Shown here one piece after another: positions 11,944 through 46,171 of a stretch of DNA of 46,825 bases (within the stretch, counting starts at the first letter, position 1; the number at the start of each line of letters is the position of its first letter). Below the pieces are notes generated by a model. That model was not told the DNA's origin. It made no database searches and worked only from the letters and a program-made list of their open reading frames with translations. Where the stretch lies: positions 1 to 46,825 of the forward strand of contig JAUSHX010000030.1 of assembly GCA_030648265.1 (NCBI GenBank), read 5' to 3'. This DNA comes from a bacterium. Its GTDB lineage: Bacteria; Patescibacteriota; Minisyncoccia; Phycocordibacterales; UBA2100. The position numbers and the translations under genes were made by a program.

Positions 11944-12845
11944 ACGCTCCTATCAATTGAAATATCCTCGTAGGACCTTTTGTCGCCTATCGGTTCAAGA
12001 TGAGTCAAAACAGTAACATCGGGTATCGCATCCCTGATATCTTTTTCAACCACTTCGGCGAGGTCGTGTCCTTTTTGTACAGTCCACGTTCCCGGCACAA
12101 GAAGGTGAAGCGAGACGAATCTTCGCATACCTGATTGCCGCGTGCGCAGACCATGATATTTGATTGTCTTGCCCGTGTGTTTTTCAAGAATTAGCCGTAA
12201 TTTATCCCTCTCTTCCTGTGCTATTGCCGTGTCCATGAACCCCAAGGCGGAGCGCTTTATCAGTTGGTACCCCGTATAAACAATATTGAGGGCGACAAGA
12301 AGAGCGATGAGCGGGTCGAGCATCGTGATTCCTGTTACTGCGACAATTCCGACTCCGATGATGACGCCAACTGACGTCCAGACATCAGTGAAAAGGTGAT
12401 GAGCATCCGCCTCAAGAGTAATTGAGCCATATTTCTTTCCGGCTTTAAGAAGCTGGCGGGCGATTACAAAATTAATCACAGAGGCAATTGCCGCGACTAA
12501 AAGACCGATGTTGACCTGTTCAATATCTTTCGGATTGAGCAGGCGTTCAACCGCCGCATATCCGATGACAACAGCCGCGACAATAATCAAAACGCCCTCA
12601 ATAATGCTGGAAAAGTACTCCGCCTTCGTGTGTCCGTAGGAGTGTTCTTCATCCGGCGGTTTATGGGCGATAGTAAGCGCCACTAGCGCAATCACTGCGG
12701 CGACGAGATTTACGACTGATTCCAAAGCATCCGAAAGCAATCCCACCGAGCCCGTTAAAAAATAGGCGGCGGCCTTCAAAGCAATCGTTACAACCGCGCC
12801 TCCGATTGCGAGCCATGCGAAACGTGTGAGAGATGTTCGGTTCAT
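11940..12845 (-). CDS. Cation diffusion facilitator family transporter
   Basis: [40 protein letters not shown]. Confidence 0.9.
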
Positions 12846-39362: not shown

Positions 39363-39436
39363 CCGCCCGTAGCTCAGCTGGTTAGAGCGATCGCCTCTTA
39401 AGCGAAAGGTCCCTGGTTCGAATCCAGGCGGGCGGA
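39363..39436 (+). tRNA. tRNA-Lys(CTT)
   Basis: Acceptor CCGCCCG/CGGGCGG, loop CTCTTAA, T-loop TTCGAAT. Confidence 0.93.
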
Positions 39437-39587
39437 CAAAGGTGCAGAAAAAGCGCCTATATGGGTAGGTGGCCCTCCTCCGCTAAAGCTACGAAGGGCA
39501 AAGCGGGAATTCCAGTAGTACAGCAAAGCTGACTACTGGACAGGTTGGTATACGAGTTCTGTTCAAAGTGCTGGGGTGGCGAAATTG

Positions 39588-39831
39588 TCCCGAAACATAC
39601 AGAGCGCGAAGCGCGACAATATGTTTCGCGATCCCGTTTGTTTGCGAGTGTATAATCAACCATCAAGGGTAGGTGGCGTAATTGGTAGCCGCGCTAGCCT
39701 TAGGAGCTAGTCCCGAAAGGGGTGCGAGTTCGAGTCTCGCCCTACCCACAACGGTGTTTTGATCAGTCGCCCTCTGTATAACGGGATCAACGAAACTGTA
39801 ATACTCGCTACGCTCGCAAACAGTTTCGGGA
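39588..39831. mobile_element. 244-bp insert in tRNA-Leu bounded by inverted ~51-nt hairpin repeats (TCCCGAAAC.../...GTTTCGGGA)
   Basis: Left repeat 39588-39638, right repeat 39780-39831 in inverted orientation; nested tRNA between. Confidence 0.75.
39667..39748 (+). tRNA. Complete tRNA-Leu(TAG) nested inside the insert
   Basis: Acceptor GGGTAGG/CCTACCC, loop CTTAGGA, T-arm GCGAG TTCGAGT CTCGC; TATAAT about 11 nt upstream. Confidence 0.95.
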
Positions 39832-39944
39832 GTAACGCGCGTGGCTTAGGACCACGTGGAGCAATCCATTGGAGGTTCGAGTCCTCTCCCCAGCACTTTG
39901 AACGGAGCAGACACTGTTAGGGTCAATGTGATACACTATTTTTT

Positions 39945-40373
39945 ATGACGGTCAGATACGCTAGAAATCTTGCGGTTGTTGCGTTGGCTATTATTGTGAT
40001 TGCTCCGACGCTGGTGTTTGGCGCTGTACCGGGCCCCATCGTTAACTGCAGCGGTGCTCTCCCAGGCACTACCGTTGACGGCAAAACACAGGCGGCGTGT
40101 ACGGTCTGCGATATCGCAAAAACCGCGCAGAATGTTCTGAACACTGCTATCTACATTGCGGTATTTCTTTCTGCGATACTTTTTGCGTATGCGGGAATTA
40201 TCTATGTAACAAATATTGCCAATCACGGAGAGATAACAAAGGCGAAAAACATTTTCTCTAATGTACTTATCGGCCTTGTTATTATTCTTGCGTCGTGGTT
40301 GGTTATAGACACCCTCATGAAGATTCTGGTCAATGAAAAAGCGATTATAGGACCTTGGCATCAGGTGTGTTAG
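39945..40373 (+). CDS. VirB2/TrbC pilin-like two-TM protein
   Basis: N-terminal signal, two TM segments, conserved-looking NVLIGLVIILASWLVIDTLMK. Confidence 0.65.
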   Translation: MTVRYARNLAVVALAIIVIAPTLVFGAVPGPIVNCSGALPGTTVDGKTQAACTVCDIAKTAQNVLNTAIYIAVFLSAILFAYAGIIYVTNIANHGEITKAKNIFSNVLIGLVIILASWLVIDTLMKILVNEKAIIGPWHQVC

Positions 40374-45466: not shown

Positions 45467-46171
45467 ATGCTAAGACGAGTACCACTGATTTCAGACGAAA
45501 CATATCACGTTTACAACAGGGGCGCGGGTAAGCAACGCATATATACTACGCCGAGAGACTACGAGCGCTTCATGGGACTTCTGTGTCTGGCCAATAGCAA
45601 AGAGCCGATAACATACCGAGGACCGTCCTCGGTAGGGATTTTCAAACAAGAAAAAGAGGCCGCGCCGACTCAAAAGTTGGTTGATGTGCTCGCCTACGTG
45701 CTCATGCCGAATCATTTCCATTTGGTGTTGAAGCAGATAAAAGATGAGGGCATCACCAAGTTTATGCGCAAGCTTGCGACTGGATACTCTATGTATTTCA
45801 ATATCAAGTACGAACACAGCGGCGTTCTGTTCCAAGGACGGTTCAAAAGCAGTCACATTAACTCGGAGCCATATTTTAGATACATCTTCTCGTATGTGCA
45901 TCTTAATCCCGTAGAGCTCATTGAGCCAGACTGGAAAGAAGGAACTATTCGCAATGAGAAAAGGGTGCGGAAATTTCTTGCCGACTACCGATACGGAAGT
46001 TACTTTGACTATTGTGTCGGCGAGCGACCGGAGCGGGCGATTCTCGCTTATGATGATGCGCCGGATTTCTTGAAGGAGCAGAATGATTTGGAAGAAATGC
46101 TTAGCGACTTTTCAAAGGGTCGCATACTCCACACCGATGACGGTGTGATTACCGAGGACCGTCCTCGGTAA
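45467..46171 (+). CDS. REP-associated tyrosine transposase (RAYT, Y1_Tnp)
   Basis: YHVYNRGAGKQRIY, YVLMPNHFHLVLKQ (HUH), YIFSYVHLNPVE. Confidence 0.92.
   Translation: MLRRVPLISDETYHVYNRGAGKQRIYTTPRDYERFMGLLCLANSKEPITYRGPSSVGIFKQEKEAAPTQKLVDVLAYVLMPNHFHLVLKQIKDEGITKFMRKLATGYSMYFNIKYEHSGVLFQGRFKSSHINSEPYFRYIFSYVHLNPVELIEPDWKEGTIRNEKRVRKFLADYRYGSYFDYCVGERPERAILAYDDAPDFLKEQNDLEEMLSDFSKGRILHTDDGVITEDRPR
45614..45634. repeat. REP palindrome inside the RAYT coding sequence
   Basis: TACCGAGGACCGTCCTCGGTA, in-frame YRGPSSVG. Confidence 0.85.

Follow-up and report, generated by a model that had tools for sequence, protein, structure and literature searches.

A tRNA-Leu(TAG) gene interrupted by a second tRNA-Leu(TAG)

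The window, i.e. the whole stretch of 46,825 nucleotides that was analysed, is contig 35 of a patescibacterial genome assembly (G000) of 943 kb in 40 contigs with 4.18% contamination. It contains a tRNA-Leu(TAG) gene (outer) that is split in the D-loop by an insert carrying a tRNA-Leu(TAG) gene of its own (inner). The locus and its surroundings comprise the following features:

39363-39437 (+): tRNA-Lys(CTT), found by ARAGORN; the same upstream neighbour of tRNA-Leu(TAG) as in relatives of the genus
39463-39473 (+): GGGTAGGTGGC, 11-nt 5' remnant of an older resident tRNA-Leu with an inner-type acceptor; exact repeat of the start of the inner tRNA
39474-39504 (+): hairpin repeat breaking up the older remnant; an overlapping 34-nt stretch matches G014:C11 at 97%
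39505-39511 (+): GGGAATT, candidate continuation of the older tRNA-Leu remnant
39512-39544 (+): CCAGTAGTACAGCAAAGCTGACTACTGGACAGG, dispersed REP-like hairpin with matches in 22 genera of the order
39545-39556 (+): TTGGTATACGAG, candidate continuation of the older tRNA-Leu remnant
39558-39569 (+): leader TCTGTTCAAAGT, which lengthens the outer acceptor stem (inverted repeat I1); CAAAGT/ACTTTG is common to G018, G003 and G034
39570-39587 (+): 5' part of the outer tRNA-Leu(TAG), acceptor to D-loop, GCTGGGGTGGCGAAATTG, by sequence and fold
39588-39831 (+): insert of 244 nt, the sequence between the outer halves
39588-39652 (+): left end of the element, TCCCGAAACATACAGAGCGC..., with a terminal hairpin; homologous ends in four other genomes
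39651-39656 (+): TATAAT 5' of the inner tRNA, by sequence
39667-39749 (+): inner complete tRNA-Leu(TAG), the cargo, by ARAGORN and Rfam
39767-39831 (+): right end of the element, ...CTCTGTATAACGGGATC...GTTTCGGGA, with a terminal hairpin that covaries among copies
39832-39895 (+): 3' part of the outer tRNA-Leu(TAG) with D-arm, anticodon, variable arm, T-arm and acceptor
39895-39906 (+): trailer ACTTTGAACGGA, pairing with the leader as an inverted repeat
39945-40373 (+): type IV secretion system pilin-like gene (Pfam PF18895), used as synteny anchor

The outer tRNA-Leu(TAG) is broken after GGCGAAATTG (39587) and taken up again at GTAACGCG (39832). The joined halves fold into a complete tRNA-Leu with an acceptor stem paired at 7 of 7 positions, and the coordinates of the split gene in the initial annotation proved exact. 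Leader and trailer add 12 bp to the outer acceptor stem, with 18 of 19 positions paired between 39558-39576 and 39888-39906. Compared with five intact relatives the joined outer tRNA showed two one-base indels, i.e. a missing base in the D-loop and an extra T before the T-stem. The inner tRNA-Leu(TAG) was detected by ARAGORN and by Rfam, the latter at 57.3 bits, which confirmed the earlier claim of an intact tRNA with the same anticodon within the 244-nt insert. The TATAAT that had been ascribed to it is present, but a complete sigma-70-type promoter for the inner tRNA was not scored in the promoter scan. The Rfam scan of the window yielded nothing but tRNAs at gathering scores, and no group I or group II intron core.

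Among the tRNAs of the G000 assembly no second intact tRNA-Leu(TAG) was found besides the inner copy. The other leucine tRNAs, with anticodons TAA, CAA, CAG and GAG, are present once each. We infer that of the two copies the inner one is functional.

Ends of the insert and their recurrence in other genomes

The insert terminates in a perfect 9-bp inverted repeat, TCCCGAAAC/GTTTCGGGA, and three further inverted-repeat pairs join its two ends; like the lengthened outer acceptor stem and the 11-nt remnant, these had been overlooked in the initial annotation. Between these structured ends lies one complete tRNA gene and no protein gene; the 244 nt hold no integrase gene. The junctions read AATTG on the left and GTAAC on the right versus AATTGGTA in the intact gene, without a target-site duplication. 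Direct attL/attR repeats that restore the target are likewise absent, the ends being inverted and the target staying broken. In G000 the right-end motif is single copy, and the scan of species genomes with the left end returned no autonomous partner. Thus the insert shares terminal inverted repeats and the lack of a transposase gene with MITEs, but neither the target duplication nor the multiple copies. Its subterminal hairpins, the absence of a duplication and a fixed short target before the left end agree with IS200/IS605 and REP elements.

Each end was searched singly in 348 genomes of the patescibacterial order. Both ends recurred in other families, namely in G293 (left end 97% identical), G094, G181 and G242, and the right end without the left one was found in G222 and G099. 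In all four further two-ended elements the cargo is a complete tRNA, and the tRNA gene that encloses the element belongs to the same isoacceptor. The cargoes of the two-ended elements are Leu(TAG) and Leu(CAG) at the D-loop and Gly(CCC) and Gly(TCC) at the anticodon loop of the matching host genes. Inner and outer genes are co-oriented in every case, although the Gly elements, judged by their ends, have the reverse orientation. TTG precedes all five left ends and G follows the right ends.

The left end was also searched by exact pattern in 85,488 species genomes, with eight matches. The four matches in Patescibacteria are these loci; the other four had no right end and no tRNA. Element-bearing records of the order include the Parcubacteria group, Lloydbacteria and Taylorbacteria, and on this basis G000 was placed as Parcubacteria-like. 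A tRNA-bearing copy of these ends at a neutral site was not found, and by exact pattern neither end occurred in viral contigs.

In an alignment of the copies 98.4% of the cells of the right terminal hairpin were paired, and five of its nine pairs had changed on both sides. None of 500 shuffles performed equally well, and slid controls reached at most 54%. The left hairpin is paired as well and is too conserved for a covariation test. The three Leu cargoes have acceptor and T-arm sequence in common across three families and two anticodons, which is consistent with ends and cargo travelling between species as one unit.

The element of G242, at about 1.2 kb the largest member of the family (L147/L168, G242:C40, about 16.6-17.8 kb), contains, between its ends, Gly(TCC) plus other DNA of about 0.9 kb. 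At L154 (G222:C31:4480-4545) the right end lies in the 3' half of a tRNA-Leu(CAG), and left end and cargo are missing.

Nested tRNAs flanked by other inverted repeats

In a first survey the flanks of intact tRNAs in three genomes were compared with every 5' half and every 3' half of the tRNAs of these genomes. Both halves flanked ten tRNAs, and in eight of these they belonged to the same amino acid. The minus-strand control returned one case and the swapped-half control none, without any same-amino-acid case. Because G181 and G293 had been picked for holding elements, these counts give no estimate of prevalence. G028, G037 and two genomes from other parts of the phylum were then added, which widened the survey to 273 tRNAs from seven genomes. 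At a more stringent cut, at which the Leu nest of the window escapes detection, 11 of the 273 tRNAs were flanked by both halves of a same-amino-acid tRNA, while both computational controls yielded zero nests. G037 and the two genomes of other orders were free of same-amino-acid nests, with the tRNAs of G392 covered in part.

Clear nests are those of Thr(TGT) in G000, of Gly, Ile, Arg, Val and Pro in G181 and of Pro(TGG) in G028, a single-contig genome. Ala(CGC) and Leu(CAG) in G181 as well as Ser and Glu in G028 form weaker, partial nests. When segments were picked by hand, the outer halves paired with each other at 7 of 7 positions in nine of ten nests, and at 5 of 7 in that of Val. In most nests the pairing between outer halves was clearly better than that of outer with inner sequence. 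As the outer halves pair with each other, we concluded that an insertion took place. The spacers contain inverted repeats in all 11 nests tested, mostly of differing sequence, and six of the eight tRNAs flanked by inverted repeats of at least 10 bp are nested.

One such repeat family, CCCCGTTAGAAGT...ACTTCTAACGGGG, is dispersed with up to a dozen copies per genome, whereas the backward pattern gave almost none. Its interiors of about 30-105 nt are unrelated to each other, a 4-bp flanking duplication (TTCA, TTGA, TGAA) is frequent, and most copies lie outside tRNAs. A CCCCGTTAGAAGT element with a tRNA-Gly(CCC) interior is located inside a tRNA-Gly(CCC) of G099, with CTTG on either side, and a shortened form carries tRNA-Thr in G000. 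The varied interiors indicate that inverted-repeat elements of these genomes can hold varied DNA, at times a tRNA. Examples of the family are L370-L395 and G000:C4:2448-2576, and G013 has 12 forward matches.

For Leu(TAG) in G000 and G293 no intact isoacceptor copy other than the inner gene was found, and the same applies in G181 to Gly(CCC), Ile(TAT), Val(CAC) and Pro(CGG). A second copy is present for Arg(TCT) in G181 and for Thr(TGT) in G000; thus, judging from the latter, replacement was not always essential.

At L006 (G000:C32, about 12220-12420) a broken tRNA-Thr(TGT) encloses the nested tRNA-Thr(TGT) in its D-loop, and the nested gene is flanked by CCCCGTTAGA/CTAACGGGG. The second intact Thr(TGT) of this genome (L010, contig 1) lies 3' of a 5' remnant of the other type. 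At L142 (G360) Gly(CCC) comes after two successive broken 5' halves, each then followed by a similar TTGCCC... stretch.

Unbroken relatives and older layers at the locus

Throughout the genus tRNA-Leu(TAG) is usually found near tRNA-Lys(CTT), and most members possess a single intact inner-type Leu(TAG) with the acceptor GGGCAGG, GGGTAGG or similar. Of 52 genomes only G000 had the Leu(TAG) anticodon arm matched twice; G003 likewise gave a second match, which was left out because by sequence it is not a tRNA. A query of the relatives with the whole region of 621 bp returned mainly ordinary Lys and Leu tRNAs.

The initial annotation had proposed a survey of relatives for uninterrupted orthologs, and these do exist. 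In G024 and G072 the tRNA-Leu is uninterrupted, and the gene that comes after it is orthologous to the pilin gene of the window (71% and 63% identity, respectively). Intact genes of the outer type, which has the acceptor GCTGGGG and the CAAAGT/ACTTTG extension, occur in G018, G003 and G034. The presence of intact genes with the same leader/trailer extension is the opposite of what the initial annotation had named as a refutation, namely relatives in which the outer halves never formed one gene.

In G018, G003 and G034 the intact outer type comes after a broken inner-type gene, and in G018 it lies inside one. In the window the 11-nt remnant at 39463-39473 occupies the same position as the intact tRNA-Leu gene of G024 and is followed by AATT and two hairpin repeats. 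GGGAATT and TTGGTATACGAG may represent D-loop remnants of this older tRNA-Leu, and the leader at 39558-39569 is probably the left arm of an earlier insertion. On the basis of the broken inner-type genes near the outer type and of the 11-nt remnant, the window locus appears to have been exchanged at least twice. The order would be from inner type to outer type and to inner type again. L145 of G293 resembles the window in that Leu(TAG) is placed within the outer type within inner-type remnants.

Origin of the nested tRNAs

We consider it likely that mobile elements with inverted-repeat ends carry complete tRNA genes, and that a hit in a tRNA gene present once persists only where the cargo stands in for the target. 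At the window locus a short mobile element would have entered the D-loop of tRNA-Leu(TAG) after AATTG and destroyed the resident gene, and the cargo tRNA of the same isoacceptor would have taken over from it. In this order several unrelated inverted-repeat elements would carry tRNA genes in full, and when one of them enters a tRNA gene that is single copy and presumably essential, the outcome would be lethal unless the cargo substitutes. Because it substitutes for the target, the cargo would render the element indispensable and locked in, while the outer gene decays. Survival rather than targeting would then account for the match between cargo and target.

As far as sequence comparison can tell, the first of two readings in the initial annotation, that an element with a replacement tRNA on board broke the resident copy, is supported by recurrent ends with matching cargo, by the uninterrupted orthologs and by the inner gene being the only intact copy. 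On the other hand, no transposase is linked to the ends, and the Y1 lead fails in G094. The ends are single copy in G000, unlike those of most MITEs, and no target duplication is present here. Pure survival filtering might predict some tRNA-bearing copies at neutral sites, of which none was found, and Thr(TGT) has its second copy in G000. It is possible, though we regard it as rather unlikely, that the elements are selfish tRNA cassettes, each of which recognises the chromosomal copy of its own isoacceptor and breaks and replaces it in one step, and that they pass between families of Patescibacteria and repeatedly displace one another at the same loci.

Alternatively, the match could be due to mechanism and not to survival alone, if the element recognised the tRNA gene that it carries by means of a loop-specific recombinase or a homing endonuclease. 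Such targeted homing would fit the fixed junctions in D-loop or anticodon loop with TTG before and G after, the count of zero for known copies with these ends at neutral sites, and the nesting of six of the eight tRNAs with inverted repeats of at least 10 bp; moreover, LAGLIDADG-like ORFs adjoin tRNAs in G013 and G293. Yet unrelated inverted repeats in the same arrangement would call for many independent targeting systems, the CCCCGTTAGAAGT family mostly lands outside tRNAs, and the elements encode neither nuclease nor recombinase. Homing is conceivable, but we doubt it.

Replacement of the resident gene by the cargo of a mobile element, which we favor, would leave the outer gene to decay, and several outer genes are indeed defective. 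In G181 the anticodon bases are missing from those of Pro(CGG) and Val(CAC), and a repeat lies in the D-arm of the outer Val. The outer Thr of G000 contains a second hairpin repeat in the anticodon loop, the outer Leu of G293 has a mismatched anticodon stem, and the broken gene of G018 has lost a stretch. Because outer genes without an anticodon or with further inserts occur, we regard them as relics and not as intron-split genes. These defects and the absence of an intron family from the window also count against the second reading of the initial annotation, in which the outer RNA is spliced; the outer tRNA would then be functional, and the insert, with its nested tRNA, would be an intron. 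In the window the outer halves do fold well when joined, in G181 and G242 those of Ile(TAT) and Gly lack no part, and inverted-repeat ends would bring splice sites together. Nevertheless, the outer gene of the window carries two indels, neither a group I nor a group II intron was matched, and two tRNAs of identical job would result. Splicing of the outer RNA is therefore very unlikely.

Still less probable is a decayed tandem array, in which the 5' and 3' pieces stem from two truncated neighbouring tRNA copies without any insertion. Duplications of tRNAs and 3'-end repeats are common near these loci, but the outer halves join at one and the same tRNA position, with complete pairing in nine of ten nests, the inner gene is flanked by inverted repeats, and identical ends are found in other families. 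An assembly artefact or a strain chimera, which the 40 contigs and the contamination of G000 and the derivation of most cases from metagenome assemblies might suggest, is hardly credible in view of independent cases with differing sequences in separate assemblies and families, the clear Pro(TGG) nest in the single contig of G028, and the conservation of ends and covariation across assemblies.

Comparison with known elements

Islands, prophages and archaeal plasmids are examples of integrative elements that enter tRNA genes, in many cases at a loop, and after which a working tRNA remains (PMC8371274). They restore the target by a shared stretch, use the original promoter and encode an integrase. 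In contrast, the window element has a whole second tRNA between the halves, has no integrase and leaves its target broken. MITEs are, like the window element, short, with inverted-repeat ends and no protein gene, and sometimes contain passenger DNA. The CCCCGTTAGAAGT family is MITE-like in being multi-copy and often having 4-bp flanking repeats. The window element differs from MITEs by a cargo that is a whole tRNA matching the broken gene and by single-copy ends without duplication. With the Y1-moved IS200/IS605 and REP elements it has in common the hairpin ends, the lack of a duplication and a fixed TTG before the left end. Long inverted complementarity between both ends is untypical of the IS200/IS605 and REP families, and the Y1 gene is absent from G094, which bears an element. 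Insertion between two Gs in the manner of IS607 was considered as well.

In tRNA introns, i.e. group I introns in bacteria and bulge-helix-bulge introns in archaea, a tRNA gene is interrupted in a loop as in the window; yet no intron core was found in the window, and several outer genes are beyond repair by splicing. Rickettsia palindromic elements are small palindromic selfish DNA in essential genes and are tolerated since the host gene still works, whereas here the host gene is lost and replaced. Inverted-repeat elements, tRNA introns and elements that restore the tRNA gene into which they integrate are all well known. In the open-access literature searched we found no earlier account of nested tRNAs of the same isoacceptor or of whole-tRNA cargo replacing a gene; a prior description is possible.

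If the favored explanation holds, mobile DNA would time and again destroy tRNA genes, which are among the most essential and conserved genes, and substitute for them at the same site. Selfish DNA would thereby have a path to indispensability in streamlined genomes, and fast tRNA turnover and horizontal tRNA replacement would have a source. The nests are also an annotation trap, because tRNA finders overlook the broken outer copies.

Other repeats and neighbouring genes

The CCAGTAGTACAGCAAAGCTGACTACTGGACAGG hairpin (L115-L142 in addition to the window copy) lies mostly away from tRNAs and sometimes within broken tRNA genes. The hairpin 5' of the outer gene was considered as part of the element and rejected, as it is a dispersed repeat in its own right.

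Y1 transposase genes were found in seven of eight genomes, the exception being G094, and had no physical link to the ends. One of the four Y1 matches of the window's genome is an IS200-like transposase gene (PF01797) at 45467-46171 of the window, about 5.5 kb downstream.

ORFs with LAGLIDADG-like motifs are located at L068:1-156 (-) after tRNA-Lys in G013 and at L192 after tRNA-Met in G293. That of G013 is a fragment of 52 amino acids without a Pfam match, on a contig that ends before any tRNA-Leu. A homing-endonuclease intron as the source of the insert was dismissed, since the Lys-Leu intervals of four other relatives have no such ORF.

Finally, many tRNAs (L046, L063, L065, L066, L085, L099, L145 and others) have their last 15-24 nt repeated exactly at a distance of 110-270 nt downstream, which looks like the outcome of short elements integrating at tRNA 3' ends.
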